Below are positions 15,701-64,000 of a stretch of DNA of 64,000 nt, one piece after another. The stretch lies in the NCBI RefSeq assembly GCF_002443255.2, contig NW_019211454.1:1687936-1751935 (forward strand), read 5' to 3'. This DNA is from Varroa destructor. Taxonomy: Eukaryota; Arthropoda; Arachnida; Mesostigmata; Varroidae. The notes beneath the pieces were generated by a model. It saw only the letters and a program-made list of their open reading frames with translations, had not been told where the DNA came from and did no database searches. Numbering within the stretch: the stretch's first letter is position 1; every line of letters starts with the position of its first letter. Position numbers and translations under genes: made by a program.

Positions 15701-17001
15701 CACTGCCGTTTTAATCATCGGTCAGCCGCCCAGATGATGTGATCTATGTCTCTCTCTAAGGGATGCCCTCATCGTTCCTGAAGATCCATATTAAACACTA
15801 TAGTCGTTAGCACAGATTAAGTTTATATATATTTAGTTTATAACATAATCCCTATTACCGCTTAATTAAGCCATCATTGAAGCTATACAAGGGTTGCTGT
15901 TAAATAGTAAAAACAATAGTTAATAACTAGCGAAACGTATCTGTCGGTCGAGGAAAATTGATTTTCGTATTACTTTTTTTTAAGCAGCAAGCGTGTCATG
16001 GAGCCATTTTCGACTACGTATCGCATCATACGTTGCTTGTCTGAAAACGCAATGAAGAATCTAATCTGAGAGCTTGTGCGCGTACCACAGTCGCCTATGA
16101 TCTAAACAGTAGCGCAGTGTCCCCTGAACGTAGATAGCCTATGCGAGTTGCTCCGCTGTTGTTTACGCTTTGAAGGTTCTTCGTAGACGACGGATCGCTG
16201 CAATTCCGCGCAGATGCACGCCAGCGACTTTTTCGGCGACAGCGCATCGAAGACGTGTGAAAAGCTCTACAACCATTGACTGACGCTACTACGACTAGTT
16301 TCTCGTTGTCTTCCCAAAATCATTGAAACAACTTATAGAAACGTGGGCGAGTACGTATCTTCTTTTAACGATAACATTGCCTCAACTCATTCTCACCATT
16401 GTTCTAGCATTTTAGAAGGGATTGCTTCTTGGTATTTGAGGAAGGAGATAGGCGAAGAACATGTGCAGAAATCAGCTAGCGAAAGTGGTGGAGTTGTTGC
16501 AGTTTGACCACTTATTCGGACGTTGTAAAAACGCTCATATATAGTACGATAAAGGAGCATTAAATATGAATTGATTCAACTGTTATCAGTTACGCGAGGT
16601 CAAACTAGATGTTTCATATAGATAATGAAGTTATTGGCTAGTATTGTCGTCGAACGAGGCTTGTGTGTCACAATGCATCGAGTTCGAGTTTCCTCCGTGA
16701 CAGATAAGCCTGAACAGCACGGCATCATACTTTGTAAGTGTGAGACAACTGAACCCTTCTATCTCGACCCCTAGTAACTATTAGATATCATCTTCATTAG
16801 CGTGTACGGAACTTTATACCAGACAGATAGGAACAGTCCAGCTATAAGCACAGTTGCGCACCTATATAGCAATAAAAGAAGCAAAGATTCCTTGCGTATA
16901 ATCAATATTGCTTAGCTGTTTTCCTAAACAATGCTATCTGGATAGGTTATCAGAGTCAGCCACCGATCTATTCGTGCTCTCGCCCTAATTACCTATTTTA
17001 G
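12716..17001. other. No assignable gene upstream of the pseudokinase
   Basis: AT-rich DNA with no recognised domain. A TATA-like CTATATAG lies near 16.86 kb and could serve a transcript starting just before the tentative first exon. Direct support is lacking. Confidence 0.45.
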
Positions 17002-17021
17002 CAGAGATTCAAACTGTCCAG

Positions 17022-17333
17022 ATGAAACAATGTGACGACCATTTAAGTGAAGACCGCGTAGCTTTTCATCAACGAATCAGCACACCGATACATTTGCGAT
17101 TTGGTGCGTACCTGCAGTTTTACGACCTCGAAAAAAGACCTTTCGACAAAACAACACATTCTGACCCTTTGTGGCGTGCGATGAATGCCATCGTTTCACA
17201 CAGAAAATTACAACCGAACCAAGAAAATGCAGAGACTCAACAAAGAGCTACCAAAAAAGTTATTGGCGTTAGCCTTCAGCCTGTTGTCCTGAAGTCGGAT
17301 AACGGAGTAAACACATTTCGAGCCATGCGGAGA
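17022..17333 (+). CDS. Tentative first coding exon of the pseudokinase gene
   Basis: This 104-codon open frame lies just upstream of the glycine-loop exon. It has coding-like codon use, a mixed-composition product rich in Gln, Lys and Arg, and no recognised domain. The frame is opened by a TAA near 16988. A possible acceptor (TTTTAG or TTTTAGCAG) sits at 17001-17004, so it could be an internal exon; otherwise the ATG at 17022 may be the true start, though its context is weak. Two weak donors keep phase 0: AGA|gtaata after 17333 and GGA|gtaaac after 17306. Either would join in frame to the next exon at 17604. Membership in the gene is inferred from phase and proximity only. Confidence 0.5.
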
Positions 17334-20300
17334 GTAATATGTCTATTCAGTACGACATCATAATGTTATGTTATATGGTTGTTGTTAGTGCTATGCAAAG
17401 GAAGGAAGGAAGGGAGGGAGAATGCGCTTCATCCAAGCAGTCAATCAATTTGGACAAGGTCAAACGACATCATTTGGCATCCTAAATTTTTTGGCTGAAT
17501 TGTTGGTGAGAAGATTTATGTCTAAGAAACTTAGGTTCCGATTTTATCTTCTCTGCATATGTGGCTTGTAACAGCGTTGCCTGAACTTGCAATACGTGGA
17601 CAGCAGTGGTCACAGAATGACTTTATTCTACACAAATCGATCGGGAAAAGTCGATTTGGGTCTGTACACCTCGCCACCAATCGCCGTTCCGGAGAACAGG
17701 TCACCGTGTTCCTTTAGCTGTTTAATTGAGAATAATTGTATGCAACTGTGATTGGCAGCCTCTATCATAAATGGCATTATATAAGTGGTTAAATGCTATC
17801 CATTCATTTAGATGGGTACTATTCGTATATTGAGGTGATTGAAGACCTGAGCAACTGGGTTATTTCAGGTGGCCCTAAAGATTCTCGATAAAAATAAATT
17901 AACCGAGCAGCGGCGTACATGGCTGGAGGAAGAGCTCTATCTGCTACAGAAGCTCTGCCATGAGAATATCATTAAAATACGTGGCTGGTTTGAAGATGGG
18001 CCCAGCCTTTTTATCATGCTTGAATATGCTGAATGTCTCGACGTTTCACAGGTAACATCAAAAATACATACGAAATATAACATCGTTACATGTGTGCAGC
18101 CTTTCGATGAGTAGGCTCTTTTCGTACGCCTCACTACCATCTATTGTTGTCACACACATCTATTGTTATCTTGCACCCTATCTATCACACAGCTAAGGGA
18201 GATATACGGAGACGCTTTTTTTGATGCTTGTTATAAACGTAACAGACCATAATGACTAATTAGATTCAGTTTTCTCACAATCACAGATTGAATACTTATT
18301 CAAGCTCAGCACTTATTTCCAACTCCATGGCTTCAAATGGTTTCTAAAATTAGTGGGGGTACTTGTATAGTTATGGAAGCCCTAGCCCCTAGCCACGACA
18401 GATCCATCAAAAGTCATGTTTCTGGTGCGTAAATTATCCTATTCGTGTCATTCATGATGACGCCATAATTAGGAAGAAGTCGTCTATTATCGGCTGAGTT
18501 TAGTATTTTTTTGTAAGCATTGAGTTAGTTTAGTTACACCGAAAGCGATTGCGTTTAAATTTCGTTAAAATACTGAGTAACTGTATGCAAGTTGAACATG
18601 AATATAGCTGTCTTGGGATTTATGATTAAATAAAGCTTGGAATGTACATTACAATATCTGTTAGAGAAAAATAAGTTTCTTTTGTCGCTTCTTTCTTTTA
18701 TTAAAATAAATCGAAAAATCCACAAAGGTTATTCAGACTTCAAACACGGAGGCGAAGTTGCATCGTGCCCGGTCAAGCACGGCAAATGTGTGATCATAAC
18801 AGAGAAATATTAGCAACTTGATGGTCGTTAAGTTCATTGTTTCGTAAAGCAAAATGGCAAAACAGTTATCCGTCGTATTAGTTTTTATGGATTCTTCCAG
18901 AGTGAAGTCTCAGAGTCGCCAAAACCAGGCAAGTTAAACGCCTCTACCAGAGCAGTAAATTACTACGTGCATAGGTTATGATAGTATATCGCTGGATTAC
19001 ATTAGGTGATAAAGCGAATTATATTTGCGCTTTGTTACTTCTTTCTGATGTGTGGTTCTGGCTTGTTCTCGGGAACGCTCTTCGTTTAGACACTGTAACT
19101 AAGTAGACAATCGGACTTGATCTTGAATCGTTGAAGTAATACTTCGCTGTCTTATCGTAGCTCGGTACTGCACAATTAAAAGGCAGCTTTCTGTGTTAGA
19201 GTCGAAACACAGTCAGAACGTTGCTTCCGCTCTCAAGGAATGCAACCCAACATCAGGATCAGTCTATCTTGGCGAACCTTTAAGGGCGACGTTTATAATA
19301 GAAGTGTAACGTGAAATCCTTTCGCGATAAGGTTCCTTTGGGGTGGAATGGCAAGACAGGTGCTCATTTTTAGACACCGTGGCTCTAACCGTTGTACACA
19401 GCCAATGAAACACGAATAGAGCTTCCTATGGCAGATAATGTTTCATTCTTGTCAACGTGAAGCGCGTCAATAAACTTCAACACATAGTTCTGTTTAAACC
19501 GGCAGTCACCAACGATTGGTCACCCTTACGAAGGTAAACATGTTTGCTGATAGACACTATTTTATAAGAATTTTATGGACGAGCTCTGTTTAAAATTGAG
19601 CGAGGTTACAGTATTATCAACTGGAATGAGCCAGTGTTACTTAAGTCTTATAATTTTATACATAAGTAGTCGCGTTTTTTTTTTAAATAACCTAATGCTC
19701 TATTGGAAGTAAACGTTCTCTGTTGCTCTGAAATTGATGCAAATTAGGGTGTCCGTTTCAAAACAGGCACACTTCTCAATATATTAGCTCTATGTTTTAA
19801 TATTATCTGATAAAGATCATTCGTAACGAGGTGTTTCGACTTTACCACCAGAGTAGCACACGCCGAAAACCAGTGAATCTGTACTTTTGAGGTAATTTGC
19901 AAAATCCCTGCGTTGTCTGATAAGGGAAACGTTTATTTTGGGTTGAAAGCCTTACAGGCTTTAAAAAAAAAATTCTGCTATTCGAACCTTATCTATGAAG
20001 GCACATTGTATATCTTTCATAACCAGGTTGCATTTTTTTTTACCGTCTCGTTCAAGTCTTTTCACGCATATCCGTACTCAATTGAAAAGAGACGTCGTTT
20101 GAACAAACGAGGTCATTCTCTCGAACCTAGAATGGAATTCACGTTCCGTAGATTCAGCTTATCATCCGAAATAGACCTTTGGAGTTGAATTATGCAATGG
20201 AGCTTCAGATTTACCTAGGTCCCGCCACCAGCTGACCAGCTTATCGTCACGTATGGCTTTTTAGATAAATATCTTGTTTAACGAAAGACATTACAAACTA

Positions 20301-23300
20301 TAAAAATGTAAATATAGATTAATTAAATGTTACTTGACAAATGATTGATGCTGTAGGCATGTTAATTACGATAGCGTAATTAATGAATGGCAATATTGAT
20401 GAGACTTTTGTGGATGTTTTGGTTGGTAGGACTATTAGCGCTTTTCGAGCAGGCAAAATAGGTGTCCTGAAAAAATGTATAGACATACTATGTGAACATT
20501 GGATTTAGCTGTTCCTAAGTGCTATGCCACTAAGTATGTCATTTTCAAAGGTTCATGCTTTAAATCGCTGGGAAGGAGTAATCCTTTCGGAAATCTTTTC
20601 GGAGGAGAACTTCCAAATTGGGTGCTTTCTTTAAGATACTCTAGATTTTTCCTAGTATCTTATCACAATATGTTTGTCGTTAGGTCCTTGAGAGCTTAAA
20701 TTTAATTCGTAAATGCTTTCAAATGCACTTTGTAAATAGTAAATAATAAAAGTGAGCCAAAAAAATGCCAACATAAGCTTATTTTAAGTGAATGCGGGTT
20801 TTTTTCTTCCCAATATACTCGAATAGGAGGTAATGCGATAATTAGCGATATATATATATATAATATAGCGGTATATATAATATGCGATCTTACGAAGATC
20901 ATCTTCACTAGATGTTTGGGGTTTCAGATTTGCAATTAAAGCTAGAATAGCGTTGGCAGACACATCGATTAATAGTTACGTGTTGAACTTATGCGCAAAT
21001 AATAATGGCGGAAAAAAGAATTATTATTTTACAATGAACGTTACCATGCTGGGAAACATATAGAGATAGTGAAGAGTATGTATCCGTATTCTTTCTCAAA
21101 ATCATTAATTGCCAGTGTTTACCTCATGGCGGTACATTTTAATACGTAATCACTAACTTTATCTAGGAACTAGCAGGCGCATCCGCTAAGTTAGTGTCGA
21201 AATAACTAGGTGGCTCCGTCCCATGTAACAATTATAAGCAGATAAGGTTTGCTTTTCGTAATTTATACCAATGATACGCAGAGTTACACAACTCTGCGTA
21301 TGTCGACAAATCCCAATTCCAATATATGTAAGCGTGCGAAGTTACACGTTCTATGTGTAATGTCAAGTTAGCTGAATAGTAGGCCGTTGGATGGCCTAGA
21401 AACTTAGCTGGAAATAATACACTGTGTTCGACAAACGCAAATGGGCCAATTTTGAGAAATAACATTGCGCATGCTTAGATCAAATAGGAACACCAAGCAC
21501 TCGTTGTTGTAGAAAGAGGAAAAAGCATGGTTTAAATACTTGCCTACACCTGCCTGTCGAGAGTGAGTCACAAATGTTGAGGCTCAAAACCGTAAACAAA
21601 TAAGTAAGTCAGCGACTTAACTTTTCTGCAGTATGTCCGTTCCGGCCGGTTTCGCGCGATGAAGGTGCCGGATGCAATAGGTGTGACCCGACAGATACTG
21701 AACGCATTGTTCCATCTACACGAGAGGGGTATTTTACACCGAAATATCGTGGCTAGTACAGTTTTACTTAAGCCGATATTAGGTAAGCATAATTTAAGGT
21801 AAGAAAATTAAGCATAATCTACACATTTATGTGACACAAACCTCGAGTTTGTGTGTTATGTCCATTGCGTCAAGAGGAGCCCAGCCACACCCTGAGGTCA
21901 CTAACCATGTCTTCTTTCCACTTAAACGACTGATCAAGCTTTATTGGGATCTAGCAGTAATTATAGCTCCGGATCGGAGTCAGGTGTTTGAATCTATTAG
22001 ATAATATGCAAGTAAATTTATCATCTATTTTAGGTGAATTAGGTACGGGCCGTCCATCGCTTTTCGCACTCCTATCGGGATTTAGTTGTACCATCGTGGT
22101 TCGCAAGACGTCGCGCAGGTGCAAGAATGTCGTAATATTAGTCTCTCTATTGCGTAGCTTTTTGTACATGTAATAGCGAAATGCTTGCAACAAGCGTTGA
22201 GCGGTTGAGGCTATAGTGCATAGTGCCCGTAGCTTGAAGTGACTTTTTCGATAACCAGACTTCGAACAAACGCTTTTTGATTAAAGACATCTAGGTTCGT
22301 GGTTTCCCTGAAATTTTTTGTCTGTCACTCTCGTGAGGTTACTATACGTACAATGCGATAAATAAGAAGTTTATCATTTGGTACTTTTTCCAATGTAGTA
22401 ATGCCTTTGCAGATGCTGCTCACAACCAAACAATGAAACATGTGGCTTCAGACCGGCGACGTACGCTGAGAACCTTAGCGGAAAGGTATTAAACAGATTT
22501 TGTTATCGGGCTTGGACGTTGAGTCGGACTGTTTATATTTTGGCATCAGCTTTTGCATATGTGTGTATTAGCATGCGTTTTTTATGTAGTCCCTAAGCTT
22601 CTTTTATAACATCTTCTATATCTTATTTCGATTCTTCTAACCGTGCACTGGTTATTTTAGGAGCTGAGGGGCCGAAATTTCTTTTATAAAGCTCATAATT
22701 TAATTAACATGCGTACAATTCACAGCGACGGTAGCATTTCTCCCTCGACTTCAGCCTGCAATAAACAAATGCGTTTCTTAGCTTTGTCTCCCTTTTTTAC
22801 TACTTAACAACCGATTGAGCTCTTTCATCGTAACTGGAGTCAATTAGGTAGTTTCGCTTTGAAATTACCTTATTTCTCCCCATTCTATTTTCGCCATAGA
22901 CCTTTGCTTCCGGACTACAGCTCTGGCAATACCGCGTAAAGCTTGCTGATTAATACTACATTACTGAGGATAGGGTTTCAGTTCCAGTCCTCCGCAGAAT
23001 GGTTATTTTCATGGATTAATCATATATATATAAAGATTTACATGGGCTTACTTTTCCAGCCATAGGACATTGCATATAAGTCATTTCCAGCTGATGGCAC
23101 ATCTCGTCTGTTGGAATGAAAAATAGCATATTGAGCCCATCAATAAGGTTTAGTAAGATGTCCTAGCGGTTACATAGGCCGCTATTGTCAAAGCGTTGAA
23201 TTAGATTTAACGATAATATACAGGTTTGTGAAAGACCGTTTTTAGTGTACGCGGAAATATACGCCAAAGTATACCCTGCTAATATACTGGTAATGATATT

Positions 23301-26300
23301 ATACGGTATAATAAGGTATTCCGACGCATCAGTACTATTTTTGTAGCACTTAATTGTTTAAGTCATTTTACGGTTTTCGGCACACGTGTACATGAACATT
23401 TTCAAATTATATATAGTGTATGCTCAGTTTTTGTGGAGCTCGGCTTCATCTTGTCGGCTGGCATCATAACTTCTTTCTTTTGCGTTTTATATTACCGAGA
23501 TACAGATTATTACGCAGATCACTACGAGAGCCTGAAAAGTCTTCATTGCAACATGAAAAATATTTCCTTTCTTATAATTTAATGCTTTACTAAAAGTTTT
23601 AATCAATGCCTTAGAAAAGTTTTAAAATAAAATCATAGATTGGGCTTAAGAAGGACTTCCGCGCAAAGAGGCCGAAGGACTTTGGTTAGAAACGAGAAAG
23701 CCGACATTTCTTATATGAAAAATTAATAATAGAGCTTTCTTTGTCGTAGAGTTTTTATTGAATATGGATTCTTCTTCTTCCTTCTAGCTTACCTTTGGAA
23801 TGCTTATGTTTCTCTGACATTTGTCGAGGGCATCTAGGAGCGCTCGAAAAACAGATGAAAGCCTTTTTACAGAAGGCTTCTTATTTCAATCAGAAGGTCG
23901 GTTTTCAATTTTTTTTTAAATGCAACAGTTGACTGTATTGCACGAACGGTACTAATTTTCCCGATCAGCCTATGTGGCACATCATTAAATTTCGTATAGT
24001 CATAGTAGCAGTCTGTGTAATTCTGTGCTAAATTAGGTATTTAAGGAAAAAGGATAGAAAAATAAAAAAAAATAACGGTCTTCGATTCCTTGCTATCCTA
24101 CCTGTATTTTAACTAATAAATATAAAGTTCGTTTTCGGCTGGGCCTGCAGATAGACTCCTGGTACGTTGGTGTTCTAATGTTCCACATGGTGACGGGATA
24201 TCTACCATCAGTTCTTCCAATGGCTCACCGCCTGTCCGATCAGCTCGCAGCTGCTGCACCTGGTGAGTATGTGCAGCTGGCTATATCGTTGGCCAATGAA
24301 AAGCCACTTGAGCGGCCCAACATATCCGATGCCCTCCAGGAATGCACCAGGGTAACTATCCAGGAACGTTTTCATTTGGACCATTGAAATGGCTCTGAAT
24401 TTATATAGCAGCCTGCGGAAAGCCCCTCACAGACCATGACATTTTGAATGAAATATGAATAGTTGTATATACAAGTATATTATTGTTCTAACGAGCATTT
24501 AGTCAAGCCGTAACAATTCATAGATCTAAATCTATTTGTTATAACCCGTCTTAGTATATATCTAGATTAGATATAGTCATGGTACAGCATAGAGCATAGC
24601 ATAGAGGCTATTGGTTGTAGGTGAAATATTTGGGTAAAGAAAACAGCATGAAGGAAAGAAAAAAGTTTTTTTTAGTAACCCCCCATTTTTCACATAATCC
24701 CGTTTTTCCAATCTCCTTTCGACGCATTGTATTACGTACTGATGTAATGCTCATTTGCATTGTTTTAGATTTTGTTAACGAAAATGAGGGACAAGCGGGA
24801 AAAAATGGGTTCATATAAGGCGGGTTTTGCTTGAGACACCGTAAACGCATACTTTTCAAGCTATATACTGGATGAATGATCGTCAAGCCATGCCGCACAC
24901 GCCAGAAAGTCTATAGTGTCACAAAATAAGACCAAATTAAAGTCACCGACTTGTCTTCAAGTTTACGTAAATGCGTTCACCGCATGTTATTTTTTCATCA
25001 TTGTCTATCTATCATCCAGTAATATATCGTGACCTCTGTGTATAGTCAATCTCATTCGATTTTCGTATTCTTCAAGTTTGGAGTTATATGCATATTTTCA
25101 TTGATCTAAGTAGTTCATTTCCAAATTGATGTATTTAAAAGCTGGTACTGGTGTAAATTGAAACACCCTATGGAAGGGGTAAGTCGAGATACCTCGTGAC
25201 TAGGCATTCGGGGCAACTGTTCCGACCCGCTTCGTGTTTTTTGTAGTAGTAGTTAAACTATTTTAAACTAAGTAGACCACATTATAAACGATTCGAACAT
25301 TTAAGAATACGAAACGTGACCATCCTTGTTCCAAAGGCTAAACATGATCCGGTATACGATATGAGTAGTGCTAGGTTGACAGGTGCGATCACTCGGTAAT
25401 ATGTCGTAGTGCTGCAATTATTTTAGTTTAGTTTTTGTTGTTTATAAGTTGTTAATCTTCATATAAGACAACAAGCCCGAAAAAGCTACGATGGCAACTA
25501 TCTTAGGAATATGATGACACGTACTCGTTCTGCGGTAGTACCAGTAAACTTCATTAGTCAATCAATAATATAGTAATTATTAATAATAATAATAATAACA
25601 AAAAGTCGTGGTGAACTGATTTCGAAATATATGCGGGGTAAGTCTCTCATAACCCATACCATGTGATGCCTTAATTCACTGGACTGAATTGAGATACTTT
25701 ATTTTAGTAGTAATTCAAACGGGGCCTGTCACATAATAGCCAGATAGCAGGACGATTACACCATACCAAAGTCGGATCAGTATATTCCGTACGCCAAATT
25801 TTGTAGGCCCTCAAATACTTCATCCTAACTCACTTTCCCCTATATTGTCCTTTGTTCTTGTCGGGTTTGCAGTGTGAGGAATGTGTATCTATTTAATTTA
25901 ACTATACATGTTCATCTCACGACTTGAATGGATTTTCATTATTTCCAGGTGTTGAAGGTCATTTGTCCTCAAGAAACTCGCATCGAAAAAGCTTTGAAGC
26001 CTACGGGAACTACACCGAAAGAGTCTCAAAAAATTATGAGAAAGCCCGAAAAACTTTCCAAACCGCCAGAAAGCTCTTCGAAAGTGTTCGAAGCCTCGCT
26101 ACCAGAAAAATCAACGAAGGTGTCTGAACCTCTCGCGGTGCAACTGATGGACCTCACAAAAATGCCAGAAGCCCCTTCAAAAAAAGCTGTTTTGGCTATA
26201 AAACCATTTAAAAAACTTTCTGAGACAGTTGAAACGACCACTATAAAGCCTGAGAGCATAAAACAAGCTGAGGACAATATAATGGATCAACCCCAAAATG

Positions 26301-28123
26301 TCATATCTATGTATCATGAATCTATGAAACGATCTAAAGGTCCTATAAAACAATTTGAAAAGCCCCCGAAACCATTGAAAAGCCCCTCGAAGGAATCAAC
26401 GAAGCCATTAGAAAGCCCCACAAAGGAAGTTATGAAACCATCGGAAAGCCTCGCACGTAAGTCCCAGCGTCCAGCTATTGAGCTCCAAAGATTTTCTAAA
26501 TTACTAAAGAGTACCACACTAAAGTCCGAAACTTTCTCTAAGTTGGCGGACAATTTCACAAAGTCTCAGGGCATTACTAAATCTATGGACAGCTCCAGAG
26601 GCAAATCCCAGACCTCTACTAAAAGTATAGATAGCCCTACTGGAAAGTCCCAGGGTCACATTAAATTGACGGACAGCCTTACGGGGAAGTCTCAGATGGC
26701 TGCGCCAGAACCCGAGCACATGAAACATTCTAAAGGGGTTTCTAAACGCCATGAAACGTTGGGGGTACATCCTATAAGCAATGCGAAACAACCTGGATTG
26801 TTTTCAAAAGAACCTCAGAGTCTAGTAAATGTATCAGAAAATGGCAAAAAATTGCTAGTGCTAACAAAGAAACCTGAAAGTTCAAAAAAACAACCGAAAG
26901 TGCTCGAAAAACCGTGTCAAAGACCTAAAAGACGGCTTCAAAGCACCGTGCAATCGATGAAAAGCGTTATTACAAAACCTTTAAAGCAAGTTTGTTCAAT
27001 AACGTCCAACGGAAATTCCCAGAATCTTATGAACATAATTGAACACTTCAGGAAACAATCGCCGAATCTCACAAGTCGATCTGAAAGACTTAAAAAAAAA
27101 TCGCGTGACAGATCGCGTGACTCTACGAAATTATCGGAAAGCTCAAGTGAGATGTCCCCAAAGGCAATGGGACCATCTGACCGCCTAGCAAAAACTGGGA
27201 ATCGTAGAAAAGTAAAGAGTCACAGAAAAGCCCTCAGCCCTCAGAAACAAGTTCAACCAGCTCCCAGAAAATCGCAGAACTTTGCGGAATTAACGGACAG
27301 ACCTAGCAGATTCTCCAAACCAGCTAGAAAATTACAAAGCTTTAAAAAAATTCGAAGACGCTCAAAACAATCTGAAAGATCCATAAAAAAGTCACCAAGC
27401 CCTGTGAAATTTGGGGTAGCACGGAAATTGACGGCTCGAATCGGAAAACCTGAAGCTCAAAATGAAAAATCCCCAGCTGCAATAAAAAAAACGGATATTC
27501 GTGTAGGGAAAGTGCAATATCTTTCGAAAGCAGTAAAAAACTCCGTAATAAAATCTCAAAGCTTCGCAAAAAAGTCCGCAAGCTTAAAATTGCAGGATTT
27601 TACTAGGGCCTCAAGCCCGTCCGCAAAATCTCGAGATTTTATAAGAAGGCCGGGAAACCTTTTTATTAAATCTCGGAACTTTGCAAGAAGAGCTGCACAC
27701 TCGGCCATGAAGTCTCGGGTTTCATCAAGAAAACCTGAAATCACAAGCATAAAACCTCAAAATTTTGCTAAGAGCAGCGAAAAAAAGAACATGAAATCTG
27801 AAGGCCTAACAACATTTGCCGAAACACCTAGTAGATCTAATAATTCAAAAAGATTAACTGAAATACCGATAGGGCAATCTCCGAGTCTATCAAAGTTGAC
27901 TACCAACCGGAATGGAAAATGTGCAAATTTGATGACAACCCCCCAAAACACTACGAAATGCAGTGAAAATTTTGTGGGTTTTTCTGTAGATGCAGGGAAG
28001 CAATCCGAGTATACCTTGAAAGAAGGTAAATGTTCTATCCCGAAACAAGGAGAAAAATTCGCGAGGCAACCTGAGCGTGTATCAAAAGAAGCTGAGGAGG
28101 TTTCAAAGTCTGAGCAGGATTAA
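17022..28123 (+). CDS. Predicted Aurora/PLK-like pseudokinase with long basic repeat tail, multi-exon gene
   Basis: Exons joined by eye: 17022-17333 (tentative), 17604-17699, 17869-18051, 21632-21782, 22034-22118, 22413-22485, 24151-24351, 25949-28123 (TAA). Intron phases match at every junction (0,0,0,1,2,0,0) and all introns are GT-AG, which is the main support. The product is about 1091 aa, with a kinase domain at residues ~110-367 and a tail at 368-1091. Kinase landmarks seen: glycine loop GKSRFGSV (118-125, middle Gly is Ser), VALK with Lys140, helix-C Glu near 157, FIMLEYA hinge, HRN at 233-235 in place of HRD, SGF at 262-264 in place of DFG, CGF...TYAENL in the activation-loop/APE position, IDSW at 301-304 (subdomain IX) and ERP in subdomain XI. 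The catalytic Asp and metal-binding Asp are absent, so phosphotransfer is unlikely. Hinge and subdomain VI-IX wording resembles Aurora or PLK4 kinases, but I cannot decide between them. Function is not known; the role is inferred to be scaffold-like. The start codon is uncertain. Confidence 0.8.
17399..17421 (+). repeat. GGAA/GGGA microsatellite in a pseudokinase intron
   Basis: Short purine tract of AAGGAAGG units turning to GGGAGGG, between the tentative first exon and the glycine-loop exon. Confidence 0.85.
17604..17699 (+). CDS. Pseudokinase exon: glycine-rich loop
   Basis: The exon encodes 32 residues beginning QWSQNDF and including IGKSRFGSVHLATNRRSGEQ, the kinase subdomain I beta-hairpin. 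The acceptor is the CAG at 17601-17603 (a second CAG follows at once, so the start may shift by one codon). The donor is CAG|gtcacc. Without splicing the frame hits TAG five codons later, so a splice is required. The second glycine of GxGxxG is serine. Confidence 0.82.
17869..18051 (+). CDS. Pseudokinase exon: VAIK lysine, helix C and hinge
   Basis: A TATTTCAG acceptor precedes GTG GCC CTA AAG, giving VALKILDKNKL, the beta-3 strand with the ATP-binding lysine. LEEELYLLQKL supplies the helix-C glutamate, and FIMLEYAECLDVSQ is the hinge and start of the C lobe. The donor CAG|gtaaca is in phase 0. The spacing between lysine, helix C and hinge is that of an ordinary protein kinase N lobe. Confidence 0.85.
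20362..20383. repeat. Perfect 9-bp inverted repeat, 4-base loop
   Basis: TTAATTACG, loop ATAG, CGTAATTAA, in the same intron as the 12-bp hairpin at 21.3 kb. It is short and may be chance. Confidence 0.8.
21274..21301. repeat. Perfect 12-bp inverted repeat, 4-base loop
   Basis: ATACGCAGAGTT, loop ACAC, AACTCTGCGTAT. It lies in the 3.6-kb intron upstream of the catalytic-loop exon, about 330 bases before its acceptor. Confidence 0.9.
21632..21782 (+). CDS. Pseudokinase exon: helix E and degenerate catalytic loop
   Basis: The acceptor CTTTTCTGCAG precedes YVRSGRFRAMKV. The exon continues VTRQILNALFHLHERGILHR and then NIVASTVLL. This is the helix E plus catalytic-loop pattern in which HRD has become HRN (codon AAT at 21743-21745) and the Asn that normally binds metal is Thr. 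The donor TTAG|gtaagc leaves phase 1. Confidence 0.85.
22034..22118 (+). CDS. Pseudokinase exon: degenerate DFG region
   Basis: Acceptor TTTTAG|GTGAA restores phase 1; a second AG nine bases on (exon start 22043) would also keep the frame and remove three residues. The exon encodes TGRPSLFALLSGFSCTIVV, where SGF (22075-22083) stands in the position of DFG. The donor GCAG|gtgcaa leaves phase 2. Loss of the DFG aspartate removes the Mg-binding residue. Confidence 0.78.
22413..22485 (+). CDS. Pseudokinase exon: activation segment
   Basis: The acceptor CCTTTGCAG is strong and the donor AAG|gtatta is in phase 0. The exon encodes 24 residues plus the split Arg: CCSQPNNETCGFRPATYAEN then LSGK. ETCGF...TYAEN parallels the TLCGT...PPE segment of Aurora and PLK kinases, with the APE motif reduced to AEN. 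There is no obvious activation-loop Thr in canonical context. Confidence 0.8.
24151..24351 (+). CDS. Pseudokinase exon: subdomains IX-XI
   Basis: The acceptor GGCCTGCAG leads straight into IDSWYVGVLMFHMVTGYLP, the subdomain IX helix F with its conserved Asp and Trp. The rest forms a shortened C lobe ending in NEKPLERPNISDALQECTR, which matches the ERP arginine of subdomain XI. The donor AGG|gtaact is phase 0 and joins the tail exon in frame. The C lobe is a little shorter than in active kinases between helix F and subdomain XI. Confidence 0.85.
25580..25598 (+). repeat. TAA microsatellite in the last pseudokinase intron
   Basis: About six AAT units roughly 350 bases upstream of the tail exon. 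Confidence 0.85.
25949..28123 (+). CDS. Terminal exon: basic repeat tail of the pseudokinase
   Basis: ATTTCCAG|GTG opens 724 codons ending in TAA at 28121-28123, the longest open frame in the window. The product is very rich in Lys, Ser, Arg, Pro and Gln with almost no aromatics or cysteines, so it is probably disordered and strongly basic. Degenerate 14-residue units starting KSQ or KSR recur. Several SPxK-like sites (KSPSKES, ESPTKEV, KSPSPVK) resemble CDK or histone-H1-type motifs. Such tails often bind DNA, RNA or microtubules, but here that is inference. The first residues (VLKVICPQETR) flow directly from the kinase C lobe. Confidence 0.85.
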   Translation: MLKVICPQETRIEKALKPTGTTPKESQKIMRKPEKLSKPPESSSKVFEASLPEKSTKVSEPLAVQLMDLTKMPEAPSKKAVLAIKPFKKLSETVETTTIKPESIKQAEDNIMDQPQNVISMYHESMKRSKGPIKQFEKPPKPLKSPSKESTKPLESPTKEVMKPSESLARKSQRPAIELQRFSKLLKSTTLKSETFSKLADNFTKSQGITKSMDSSRGKSQTSTKSIDSPTGKSQGHIKLTDSLTGKSQMAAPEPEHMKHSKGVSKRHETLGVHPISNAKQPGLFSKEPQSLVNVSENGKKLLVLTKKPESSKKQPKVLEKPCQRPKRRLQSTVQSMKSVITKPLKQVCSITSNGNSQNLMNIIEHFRKQSPNLTSRSERLKKKSRDRSRDSTKLSESSSEMSPKAMGPSDRLAKTGNRRKVKSHRKALSPQKQVQPAPRKSQNFAELTDRPSRFSKPARKLQSFKKIRRRSKQSERSIKKSPSPVKFGVARKLTARIGKPEAQNEKSPAAIKKTDIRVGKVQYLSKAVKNSVIKSQSFAKKSASLKLQDFTRASSPSAKSRDFIRRPGNLFIKSRNFARRAAHSAMKSRVSSRKPEITSIKPQNFAKSSEKKNMKSEGLTTFAETPSRSNNSKRLTEIPIGQSPSLSKLTTNRNGKCANLMTTPQNTTKCSENFVGFSVDAGKQSEYTLKEGKCSIPKQGEKFARQPERVSKEAEEVSKSEQD
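26561..26686 (+). repeat. Coding tandem repeat, three 42-bp (14-aa) units
   Basis: Three consecutive 14-residue units inside the tail exon: KSQGITKSMDSSRG, KSQTSTKSIDSPTG and KSQGHIKLTDSLTG, with a fourth KSQ starting at 26687. The consensus is KSQxxxKSxDSxxG. The units differ at many positions, so the array is old or under relaxed constraint. Confidence 0.85.
27626..27835 (+). repeat. Second coding array, five diverged 42-bp (14-aa) units
   Basis: Units start at 27626, 27668, 27710, 27752 and 27794: KSRDFIRRPGNLFI, KSRNFARRAAHSAM, KSRVSSRKPEITSI, KPQNFAKSSEKKNM and KSEGLTTFAETPSR. The same 14-residue period continues weakly downstream. A related unit, KSQSFAKKSASLKL, starts at 27551. Shared length and KS-initial motif link this array with the one near 26.6 kb. 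Confidence 0.8.
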
Positions 28124-56304: not shown

Positions 56305-56404
56305 NNNNNNNNNNNNNNNNNNNNNNNNNNNNNNNNNNNNNNNNNNNNNNNNNNNNNNNNNNNNNNNNNNNNNNNNNNNNNNNNNNNNNNNNNNNNNNNN
56401 NNNN
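56305..56404. other. Assembly gap (100 N)
   Basis: Exactly 100 N, the usual placeholder for a gap of unknown size. Any gene or repeat here is missing. The DNA immediately right of it is a long inverted repeat. Confidence 0.99.
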
Positions 56405-59746: not shown

Positions 59747-60019
59747 ATGAACTTGCGTGTAAGACAGACTGCTGACAAACTTCAAATAAGGAAAATTAAC
59801 CTAATTATTTTAACCATCGAAGTCCTACTTTCAAATAGCCGGCACTGTACACTGAAACACGAGGGCAAGTTTCCCGAGAATCGAAATTACACAACTAACA
59901 TGTGGGGATTCAATCGAAATCTAGTATTTTGCGTTTCTGGTGAAACGCGGAGTTACGTTTATCTAAGAGACGGAAAATGCCTTAGTGGCCCTGAGAACCA
60001 CGTAGTACCGCCACTATGA
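59747..60019 (+). CDS. Hypothetical small, possibly secreted protein
   Basis: Ninety codons from ATG 59747 to TGA. A hydrophobic stretch (INLIILTIEVLLSNS, residues ~19-33) is followed by a Cys-containing part: HCTLKHEGKFPEN, LVFCVSGETRSYVYLRDGKC. A late signal sequence or a missed splice site at the start would fit. Three cysteines and small size faintly recall single-VWC-domain arthropod proteins, but this is a guess. Confidence 0.3.
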   Translation: MNLRVRQTADKLQIRKINLIILTIEVLLSNSRHCTLKHEGKFPENRNYTTNMWGFNRNLVFCVSGETRSYVYLRDGKCLSGPENHVVPPL

Positions 60020-60299
60020 AAAGGTATTTTATCACCTCTAAAAGAAAATTGATATCTTGCATTTCCTCCAAACTGTACGTTTTTTTTCGATGTCAGAAAC
60101 GATCAGCTGGTTGATCCGAGGGCAAATCCATCAGCAAGCTTCCAAATTGAAGTAGGCCATTGAAGAGGCCAAGAAAAGCCTCGGGTGACCCAATAAAGCG
60201 AATGAAACCTGACTTGTCAATTTTAATGGAAAGTTTTGTTACTGATGACACAGAAGAAAAGTAGCAGCAAAGGGTCGAAAGGTCACCCCTGGCTACCAA

Positions 60300-61811
60300 A
60301 ACAGATTAGATTAATTCAACAACAGGCGAGGCTGTTAAAGATGAGTTTGCAATGGACAATTCTAACGTTGGTACGTTTAGAATATGTAGATTATTAAGGT
60401 CACCCTCTCTCGGATGAGACATTAAACAAGCATGTCAAAAGAAATTAGAGGCCTTTTACAGGATATGCTCAGAAAGTAAAGGGAAATTACAATTACAAAG
60501 AAAGACGTGCCGGCTGTATTGGCAAGCAACAAAGATGCTTTTGTGGGACTTCAAAAAGGTAAACAAGTCATTTAAGTAAACACGGTAGGTTACGGTTAGT
60601 GACACTTAAAATCAAAGACCTTAGCACCACTACTAAAGGGGAGCTCAAAATGCAACCTCAACCGCAGCAGCAACTTCAATCCAACTTCAAGAAAAACATG
60701 GGGAAGGGGAAGGCGAAGGATAATGTGAAGGATAACACGAGAGTGTGAGCTCGACAAAATCAATAAAGACCTTGAAGAGTAACTCCAAGACACTCAAAAA
60801 GGAACGGAAACAGGACAACCCAGATACACAAGGAAATACTAAGCCAGAACATATGAGGCGGAACGTACATGGGGATACACAAAACATGCGCAAATAGAGT
60901 AGGACGAGTGGAGCGGCCAAAATATTTGACATAGGCCTAAGGATATAAAGAAAGTAGTAAAGGTTGGCCACAAGAAGTATACAGGGGCACGCTAGTAAAT
61001 ATGTCAAGACTCATAAGAGACAGGGAAGTTAAAGCAGTACTAATCTAGAACGAAAATTCCAAAGACATGGATCTAATTCCGTAGCACGACGGCTGCGCAA
61101 TATGAAAGCAAGCGGGGTCGCTATGTTAAAGGGCCACCGCGGTCCCGCAAATGCCGGAAAGTCCCGAACGATCGAAGACACCCCAATGCAGATATGCAAG
61201 GCACTAAAAGATCGGAATATAAAAAAATGCCTATGAAATCGTTATGATAATACTAACAATAATTGGAGAATGGAGGTGAAACTAATTAGAGGATAAAAAA
61301 AACAGAGGAAGTGAGACAAGCGGCGACCCTTTACTCCACATAACGGGGTGACAAAAGCCACTGAATACGACCCACTGGGGGCGAGCAACTCCTTGGACTT
61401 CTGCAACACAAAAGACCTGTCAGAGCGGAAAGGTAAAGAGGTGAACTGTTTAGAGACAACATCATATCAACAACAACCACCAACGATAAGGCTAAGAAAT
61501 ATAGGAGGTGGAGTACGACGCACTGTTGGCGGACAACAAAGAAGGCCGTCACGGTGTAAAACACTGTAAACCTACACGAGGGAAATACCAAAGTGATATT
61601 TAAGGAACGCAAAAAAAGTCTTTGGAAAGCATTAAGGCGCAGATGTAACTGGACGCAACATACAAGCAAAACGTTAAGACCAGCATCAGGGGCTCAGAAA
61701 AGAAAGGGTAACAATTTTTTACAAGATAAACTCTTAGGGACTCTAGTAGATAAGCATAGGTTAAGGATAAGGTCGGTACATAACTCACTAAATAAGTAAA
61801 TTATGCCTCCG
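60300..61811 (+). other. Purine-rich stretch, possible LINE ORF1 N-terminal part
   Basis: The plus strand here is conspicuously rich in A and G, unlike DNA before 60 kb, and this bias continues through the LINE. Short coding-like bits such as ELDKINKDLEE (near 60.75 kb) and a Lys/Gly-rich segment suggest a decayed coiled-coil-like gag N terminus. No domain can be named and stops are frequent. The assignment rests on continuity with the zinc knuckles that follow. Confidence 0.35.
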
Positions 61812-61911
61812 CGCTGCTTCAACAGTCAAAAAATTGGCCACGGGGGAGACCGTGAAAAGGAAAGTAAAATGCCGTGGATGCAGAACACTGGGCCACAGGG
61901 TTAAAGGTTGA
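61812..61911 (+). pseudogene. LINE ORF1 (gag) zinc-knuckle remnant
   Basis: The first knuckle reads RCFNSQKIGHGGDRE (from 61812), a Cys-x2-Cys-x4-His-x4-Cys knuckle with its second Cys changed to Ser and its last Cys lost. The second reads KCRGCRTLGHRVKG followed by TGA (61909-61911) exactly where the last Cys codon is expected. The two knuckles lie in different frames (61815 versus 61870 register), so at least one indel separates them. Paired knuckles of this kind are typical of Jockey/R1 gag proteins. Confidence 0.8.
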
Positions 61912-62336
61912 GCAAGAGGAGCAAAGGCTACAACTAGGGGAACCTAACCCAGGAGAGCTAAGTCACCCGGTTAACTACTTGGAATGTCTCGTATTCAGAC
62001 AATGCATCAAGAAAAAGAGATTAAAAAAAGTCAGTTAACCGCCGACACAAATCATGAGAGAAACGTTTACACTAAGAAGCAGCCAGCAGAAAAAACGGTC
62101 TGCGACAGCGAGAAAAAAGAGCCGCTGAATAAAGCTCTCGCAAGGTGAAAGTCACAAAAATGATGATGATGATGCTGTCAGATATAACAAGACAATAAGG
62201 AACAGGATCGGCAATAATATTTCTAAGGAGCGAACATGCCAAAAAACCTTAAGCTAGGAAATCCAAACCGGTACTAAGTAACTTGCACCTATTCGCAGAA
62301 AGAGCATAATGTACTAAAAAAGCAGGGGTAAGCAAA

Positions 62337-62790
62337 CTACTAATGCTAGGGAACAGGAAGTGATTCCATACAGGAAGACTGCTTTAGAGACGAAAATGGT
62401 GCTCCGATTCAGGCCGGACCTGCGGCATAAAGGAAAATAGCGCGGAACAAATCTGGGTAAGAACTGAATACGGGTTGATAGCATATAGCTGTTATACATC
62501 GCCAAACGCTAGGGTAGAAGCGTTTAAAGATTTTCCTGAGGACTGCGGATTGATTTTCTGGGAGTGAATAAAATAGAGGACACGAAGGAAACAAAAAGAA
62601 ATTGCTGAGTGGGGATTCGAATGCGCTATTGACCGAATGAAAGAGGGCTAGGGCAACTGGAAAAAGCAAAAGATGGAAAAGTGGCTAGTCCAACAAGGCA
62701 TGACCCTCTTGAATGCCAGACGCTCGTAAACGTTCAAGAGAGCTGATCAAGTCCTTTATATGGACCATACATTTGAAAACGACGAAACAG
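62337..62790 (+). pseudogene. LINE ORF2 endonuclease-domain remnant
   Basis: Readable pieces in order: KWCSDSGRTCGI, AEQIWVRTEYG, then SCYTSPNARVEAFKDF (from 62487), the YxSPN block of LINE endonucleases. In a second frame, GDSNALLTE (62611-62637) stands for GDFNAH, then WLVQQGMTLLNARR and FKRADQVLYMDHTF stand for the C-terminal LLN...S-x-x-DLTF block. In-frame stops TGA 62638, TAG near 62650 and a TAA after NARRS interrupt it. The catalytic-loop His of GDFNAH is lost. Confidence 0.8.
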
Positions 62791-63721
62791 TAAATGCAGT
62801 TTAAAACTCAAATGTTCTAGAAAAAGCAAGGCGACCACAAGGGTATTTTGTACGGATATAAGAATATTAGGTGCGAGCAGCGAGGCACCGATTTACGTGG
62901 CGTGCCGATACTCTTGATGGAAACTCACTCAAGGCAAAAGCAAGCTCCGGAGAACGGAAACTACTCCACTCAGGGAATTCGCATTCAATTACATCGTGTA
63001 GTTGACTTGCAAAGAAACGCCTGCGAAGCGGTCCCTCCCAATCAAACCAGAATATTCTATAGGTGTTCTGCGCAATACTGATGGAAGGTAAACACGGCGA
63101 TTGGCAGAAGGACATGCAGAAAAGTATGGACCAACGCTAGAAAAATACACAAAAAGATTTAGATGAGTGAAAATAGAAATTGGAAACCGTGCTAAGATAT
63201 GCAAAATCACACTTGCGAAATGTTGCAAGATAGTTTTCGTTAACTAAAAGGCCACGGCCAACGCTGCTGCAAGAACTGGTGAAACGAGCTGTTAACCACG
63301 CCAACTAGGCCTTATTCACTCAGTCAGGAACATTTCAGGTAACATCAAAGGCGCAAATTACTTTAGAGAAGTAAATCAACGAAGGTGTACGGCCCACAAG
63401 AGACCCACAGAATATGAGATGCTACTAATAGCAGCCAAAACTCGTTCTCACTAAACAGATTAAAGATAGAAATCAAGGAGTCAACCTTATTTACCTAGGC
63501 CGATTGAGTGTCTACAGCAGGAATTCCTATGGAGAAAGTGACTAGGGAATGCAGTGCAGATGTCAAATAGCCTTACGAAAATTCTCGCGAGCGTTAGCGA
63601 CATTAGTAGCCCGTTGTGTAATACCTAGCGTTCGCAGGTTTGCCGCGATGAAGCAAAAGCGAAACTCTTGAAAGGTGAAGAAACTTCTAGCAATAAGGGT
63701 GACAAGAACCTAATAGAACAT

Positions 63722-64000
63722 CGAAAACCTATGCCGTTTAGCTAGCACGGCTGATGCTCTGGCCAAGATCCATTGAGAAAGGAACTGAGCTGAAGAACAA
63801 TGCAGTACTAGGCAAGGAAGCAGTAAAACAGCAAACCATGAGATAATAGCACCAGGAACAGACCACTCTAGTAAAGAACTCATCAGAGGGCGGGCCCATG
63901 GTCTGGCTCCTAACTTGACTAAAAAATTAATCAGGAATCATGAAGCCGCTACCTACAACCTGACACGTCTTGACAGGGTATGGAAGTTTTTAAAAATACT
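63722..64000 (+). pseudogene. LINE ORF2 reverse transcriptase start, truncated by window end
   Basis: RKPM followed by a frameshift and RLASTADALAKIH matches the YRPICLLSTAGKLLEK block that opens the RT fingers. Then CSTRQGSSKTANHEIIA (from 63801) stands for the GFRxGRSTxxAI block, and LTRLDRVWKFLKI at the edge stands for the helix after motif A. After the stops at 63774 and 63786 the last ~65 codons are open to the window edge. Motif A aspartates are not preserved. Confidence 0.78.

Follow-up and report, generated by a model that had tools for sequence, protein, structure and literature searches.

The window analysed here is a stretch of 64,000 nucleotides of the Varroa destructor genome. 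It contains a gene of eight coding exons on the forward strand, which runs from position 16673 to 28123 and encodes a protein of 1017 residues. All seven introns are of the GT-AG type and join the exons in phase. The exons are as follows:

Coding exon 1, 16673..16733, + strand: start Met, MHRVRVSSVTDKPEQHGIIL; donor GTAAGT; best match to the Tropilaelaps N-terminus.
Coding exon 2, 17575..17699, + strand: WSxxDF lead-in and glycine loop GKSRFG; 39/41 residues identical in the metagenome protein P0002.
Coding exon 3, 17869..18051, + strand: VALK Lys, helix C with its Glu, hinge LEYA; matched by the 18-kinase profile at E 1.6e-11.
Coding exon 4, 21632..21782, + strand: helix E and the degenerate catalytic loop HRNIVAST; 18-kinase profile, E 6.7e-5.
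Coding exon 5, 22034..22118, + strand: degenerate DFG region LLSGFSC.
Coding exon 6, 22413..22485, + strand: remnant of the activation segment; YAE in place of APE (AEN in the first-pass annotation).
Coding exon 7, 24151..24351, + strand: F-helix Asp (IDSWYVG), C-lobe, ERP Arg and the start Met of isoform X3; 18-kinase profile, E 0.0053.
Coding exon 8, 25949..28123, + strand: basic tail of 724 residues rich in Lys, Ser and Pro, with a 14-residue repeat, and the stop codon; same as the matching part of P0004.

The first-pass annotation had joined seven exons in phase from position 17604. The joins it described are real, but the first exon was missed, and 17604 is the start neither of the gene (16673) nor of exon 2 (17575). 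Exon 1 was found by means of the N-terminus of the Tropilaelaps mercedesae protein BIW11_10388 (P0001), which reads MHRVRISSTGHRSDQYGMIL-S-LPELAIRG. In a scan of the three forward frames of the window upstream of approximately 17.6 kb, this N-terminus scored 60 at 16673, with a runner-up of 27. Spliced to the acceptor before 17575, exon 1 gives MHRVRVSSVTDKPEQHGIIL-S-LPELAIRG, in which IIL-S-LPELAIRG is as in Tropilaelaps. The eight-exon structure supersedes a seven-exon model that began at an in-frame ATG at 17559. This ATG, just 5' of exon 2, might serve as an alternative start, giving a protein of 1002 residues without exon 1.

Intron 1 also holds an open reading frame of 124 codons (16989-17363, + strand), in which an acceptor immediately precedes 17002 and donors lie in frame, e.g. 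at 17350. It is possible, though unproven, that it is a cassette exon adding 116 residues ahead of the kinase head; an ORF of such length can be due to chance. None of the ten window ORFs tried, this one included, had a Pfam match at E 0.01. Over the window, Rfam at gathering cut-offs and a tRNA search gave no match. A run of 100 N at 56305-56404 is probably an assembly gap, and the last 4 kb (60001-64000) show a strong excess of A over T (AT skew 0.304).

The N-terminal part of the protein (hereafter the head) belongs to the protein kinase superfamily, as had been claimed from the sequence at first sight. Pfam Pkinase matches it with E 2e-26 (93.4 bits, the cut-off being 31.7) over residues 24-232 of the 278-residue query and positions 3-198 of the 263 in the profile, the last quarter of which is unmatched. 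A profile built from 18 other kinases, with the gene itself excluded, detected four of the exons (E 1.6e-11, 6.7e-5, 0.0021 and 0.0053) among 2917 six-frame pieces covering the whole window, and nothing beyond them at E < 1; the remaining exons give no score alone. The AlphaFold2 model of the Tropilaelaps protein has a mean pLDDT of 73.6, with an average of at least 90 in the ten-residue blocks from 31 to 120, and all 50 PDB matches listed in the fold search were kinases or pseudokinases.

A MAFFT alignment with 20 kinases shows that the Varroa head keeps the hinge and, in agreement with the first-pass annotation, the VALK (beta-3) Lys, the helix-C Glu, the F-helix (subdomain IX) Asp and the ERP Arg. 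On the other hand, the proton-acceptor Asp, the catalytic-loop Lys and the DFG Asp are lost. HRD is replaced by HRN, and the catalytic loop reads HRNIVAST in Varroa and HRNIVASN in Tropilaelaps, compared with HRDIKPEN in Aurora A; the catalytic-loop Lys of the Varroa head is replaced by Val, and the Asn, retained in Tropilaelaps, by Thr. Similarly, Tropilaelaps retains the second Gly in its glycine loop (GKGRIG), where Varroa has Ser (GKSRFG).

The register of the DFG region is unsure: it reads GFS in the MAFFT alignment with 20 kinases, LF followed by a four-residue insert and G in the phmmer alignment with MARK4, and SGF in the first-pass annotation. However, the segment that separates HRN (residue 159) from the F-helix Asp (228) contains no Asp, therefore the DFG Asp is lost whatever the register, and the earlier claim that both Asp residues are gone holds even if its SGF might not. 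The compared part of the Tropilaelaps protein after HRN is also free of Asp. The APE position, earlier read as AEN, is YAE in the MAFFT alignment, with the Glu retained. Aligned with Aurora A, the head is about five residues short between this Glu and the F-helix Asp. A pseudokinase is recognised by sequence from the loss of at least one of the VAIK Lys, the HRD Asp and the DFG Asp; in the Varroa head the second is Asn and the third is absent.

Alternative exons restoring HRD or DFG, which the first-pass annotation had named as evidence that would speak against a pseudokinase, were sought in the three forward frames over approximately 17.0-28.2 kb, a scan that intron-split motifs would escape. 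No HRD was found, and the only DFG is directly followed by a stop codon. The same frames contain four APE/SPE motifs and four YRD, one of which, at 22073, overlaps exon 5 in a different frame; none of them stands in a visible kinase context.

The Tropilaelaps protein appears to be an orthologue, as it shares with the Varroa gene the same start, HRN and LLSGFSC. It differs in that its public model has only 229 residues and in keeping both GxGxxG and the catalytic-loop Asn. Its last 25 residues, which do not match and which we attribute to a wrongly predicted gene end, were excluded from the comparison. Among the 203 residues compared 142 are identical, with one single-codon gap and no stop, and the two mites agree fully over the last 19 of them (ALLSGFSCTIVVRKTSRRC, in which exon 6 supplies the final Cys). 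Varroa (Varroidae) and Tropilaelaps (Laelapidae) are both members of the Dermanyssoidea. As the matching part of P0001 ends just past exon 5, no counterpart of the C-lobe or the tail was found outside Varroa.

The 61 differences between the two mites are mild. Their mean BLOSUM62 score is 0.15, compared with a mean of -0.59 (sd 0.22, maximum 0.08) in 2000 neutral simulations, each continued until 61 differences or more had accumulated. Positive-scoring differences, of which there are 27 (simulations: mean 16.5, maximum 29), are a less extreme measure. Stops are absent, while 3.3 were expected in the simulations (none in 2.9% of them, P 0.029); unlike the mildness of the changes, this lack is partly built in, because P0001 is a gene prediction, which hides stops. 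Judged by these substitutions, the head has been constrained since the split from Tropilaelaps.

A further trace of conservation comes from the metagenome protein P0002, which carries the exon-2 residues (see above), whereas its in-frame flanks have only 3/66 and 5/47 identities. One of the flanks still shows faint similarity (score 35, with the 95% point of the shuffles at 29) and the other none (20, with the 95% point at 28). Because V. destructor and its sister species V. jacobsoni are given as 99.7% identical in the consulted part of PMC6773775, P0002 probably originates from another mite.

The occurrence of the same motif losses in Tropilaelaps, together with the 142/203 identity and the mildness of the differences, suggests that the gene is probably a live, constrained pseudokinase. 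Both elements of this conclusion had been put forward in the first-pass annotation, and a live gene is also supported by an entry in the public databases for V. destructor that equals the last 782 residues (see below). The close relatives listed by protein searches, which needed shared five-residue words and were limited in length, came only from Varroa, Tropilaelaps and the single metagenome fragment, therefore the gene may be special to this mite group.

The label "Aurora/PLK-like", initially given to the domain, is not established, as Aurora and the MARK/CAMK-type kinases obtain similar scores, with PLK below them, and the tree does not decide. In pairwise comparisons the Varroa head gave 76.7 bits with the kinase P0005, 70.9 with MARK2, 67.5 with the Aurora-type P0021, 65.3 with Aurora A and 53.0 with PLK4; the corresponding values for the Tropilaelaps head were 66.4 (P0005), 58.6 (MARK2), 64.9 (P0021), 60.2 (Aurora A) and 51.1 (PLK4). 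Family profiles, a rough guide because the family sets differ in breadth, scored 99.3/81.7 (Varroa/Tropilaelaps) for the five-member CAMK-type set, 74.5/71.7 for Aurora and 62.2/57.7 for PLK. With the N-lobe only, CAMK was ahead for Varroa (60.4 vs 55.0) and Aurora for Tropilaelaps (50.6 vs 47.2). Among solved structures, MARK4 was the top match by single sequence, and by profile RAD53 reached 76.2, MARK4 75.1 and Aurora A 68.4.

In the 20-row tree the mite pair has a stem 4.2 changes per column long and a placement without support: in the best tree, the branch that sets the pair apart together with Aurora and PLK has support of 54/0, i.e. none. When the pair was held with Aurora (p 0.2), the CAMK rows (0.17), the PLK pair (0.16), NEK2 (0.09) or PKA (0.44), none of the groupings was rejected. 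Grouping it with PLK4 alone gave p 0.016, which says little because PLK1 and PLK4, a well supported pair (98/95), are thereby separated as well. No C-terminal polo boxes of the PLK4 type were found, as no Pfam family reached its cut-off in the 724-residue tail. Descent from either Aurora or the CAMK-type kinases seems most likely.

The gene might nevertheless be a true Aurora paralogue that keeps the N-lobe docking surface and binds the partners of Aurora or competes with it. The WSxxDF lead-in and the LEYA hinge are as in the aligned Auroras, the Tropilaelaps head prefers the Aurora-type kinase to MARK2, and 37 of the 50 PDB fold matches listed for the Tropilaelaps model are Auroras, which are, however, very numerous in the PDB and contributed five Aurora-type sequences to the alignment of the model. 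Against this, the Varroa head scores higher with MARK2 than with Aurora A, both MARK and RAD53 precede Aurora A among solved structures, the mixed CAMK profile exceeds that of Aurora, and the tree offers no supported placement. We regard such a paralogue as a real but minority possibility.

A PF00069 search of the Varroa genome, in which 123 of the 558 candidates were scored, gave at least 138 matches; the exons of this gene were not among the matches listed. Eight kinase loci from this search scored 25.6-47.9 bits with the Varroa head, compared with 70.9 for MARK2. At least seven kinase matches fall within about 0.7 Mb of contig C5 (approximately 15.26-15.97 Mb), and two of the C5 loci, L007 and L008, are nearest to PKA among the 18 kinases compared. 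This clustering suggests a local kinase expansion on that contig.

The most extensive part of the protein, absent from the finding of the first-pass annotation, is the tail, which makes up 724 of the 1017 residues. It contains 15.2% Lys, 14.6% Ser and 7.6% Pro, and has a pI of 10.4 and a net charge of +90. Its repeat has a period of 14 (mean BLOSUM autocorrelation 0.117, against a maximum of -0.192 in 1000 shuffles over lags 2-60); lag 7 (-0.038) also lies above every shuffle, but lag 21 (-0.235) does not. A charge-hydropathy plot classes the tail as disordered, and in the predicted fold of isoform X3 670 of 782 residues are at pLDDT < 50, which is weak evidence of disorder because the fold was made from a single sequence. 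On these predictions the tail is probably disordered. Pfam found no family at cut-off over the tail, the kinase families being confined to the head.

Residues 236-1017 are identical (782/782) to a public entry named "neurofilament heavy polypeptide-like isoform X3 [Varroa destructor]" (P0004), which confirms the junction of exons 7 and 8. Isoform X3 is a product of the same gene without the N-lobe and the catalytic loop, and its name reflects the tail only. No intermediate-filament rod domain, as in neurofilament heavy protein, was detected by Pfam in the head or the tail. KSP triplets in the tail are few (3 vs 1.2 expected, sd 1.1), thus the neurofilament name would reflect composition more than true KSP repeats. 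This label is misleading, as the full-length form starts with a kinase-fold head. The existence of isoform X3 suggests that the tail is also made without the N-lobe and can act on its own.

It could even be argued that isoform X3 (782 residues, i.e. the tail and part of the C-lobe) is the main product, a structural basic repeat protein, and that the kinase head belongs to a minor or vestigial isoform. The sole V. destructor entry among the protein matches listed does begin in the C-lobe, at residue 236. However, the head is the very part seen conserved in Tropilaelaps, and the designation X3 implies further isoforms, X1 and X2; we therefore find this explanation improbable.

Even less probable, in our opinion, is that the head is an active, though atypical, kinase in which other residues serve metal and base, as happens in certain kinases with unusual motifs. 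In its favour, the head retains the beta-3 Lys, helix-C Glu, hinge and F-helix Asp, Tropilaelaps has an intact glycine loop and catalytic-loop Asn, and, according to the part of PMC9988210 consulted, very low activity can remain in HRN domains such as those of HER3 and JAK2. Against this stand the simultaneous loss of the proton acceptor, the catalytic-loop Lys and the DFG Asp, the lack of any Asp between residues 159 and 228, and the shortened segment between the APE Glu and the F-helix Asp.

A decaying kinase pseudogene with a frame still open by chance would account for the missing catalytic motifs, the weak C-lobe scores and the low-complexity tail, but on conservation and substitution pattern we give it hardly any credence, given 1017 codons open over seven GT-AG introns, the recurrence of the losses in Tropilaelaps with only mild changes and without a stop, and a P0002 exon that is conserved while its flanks are not.

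Based on these observations, we consider it fairly probable that the locus is a live gene whose product carries a catalytically dead kinase domain on a long repeat tail, disordered and strongly basic, and acts as a scaffold or anchor. Most likely, the head is a non-catalytic docking module placed on a basic, polymer-binding tail. Such a head would transfer no phosphate and would serve in protein docking, perhaps still binding nucleotide without metal. The tail, in turn, might bind an acidic polymer, e.g. microtubules or nucleic acid, and this binding could be tuned by phosphorylation. The whole protein would then act as a scaffold or anchor, and to regard it as a binding or scaffold protein seems reasonable.

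One may go further and imagine a dermanyssoid-mite pseudokinase whose dead active site is a conserved working surface, ALLSGFSCTIVVRKTSRRC being unchanged in two genera. The head would then be a metal-free switch, sensing nucleotide or a partner and controlling a 724-residue basic tail that binds microtubules or nucleic acid. We offer this more specific version as a speculation that is rather unlikely to be correct in full. Among the titles listed in searches of the literature, none concerned this gene. Our analysis adds a conserved pseudokinase in parasites of the honey bee, and the gene might constitute a natural case for asking why a dead active site is retained.

How does the Varroa head compare with known proteins? 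MARK, RAD53 and Aurora kinases are among its best sequence matches in solved structures. In the alignments the catalytic motifs of MARK and Aurora are intact, unlike those of the Varroa head; RAD53 is likewise a kinase with intact catalytic motifs.

Closer parallels are found among pseudokinases. The pseudokinase domains of PSKH2, HER3 and JAK2 have HRN in place of HRD, as does the Varroa head; however, PSKH2 is described as keeping the other ATP-coordinating residues, including DFG, whereas the Varroa head is devoid of the DFG Asp (PMC9988210, in the part consulted). In EphB6 (HRSLSAHS/RLG) and EphA10 (HRGLAARH/GFG), as in the Varroa head, the HRD and DFG Asp are both replaced and the glycine loop is largely intact. 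EphB6 (HRS, RLG) binds nucleotide without metal, which is the property tentatively extended to the Varroa head above. These two belong to the receptor tyrosine pseudokinases and have an altered VAIK Lys, while the Varroa head keeps this Lys (for both proteins, PMC7586955, in the part consulted). In its combination of motif losses, the Varroa head thus resembles EphB6 and EphA10 more closely than PSKH2.
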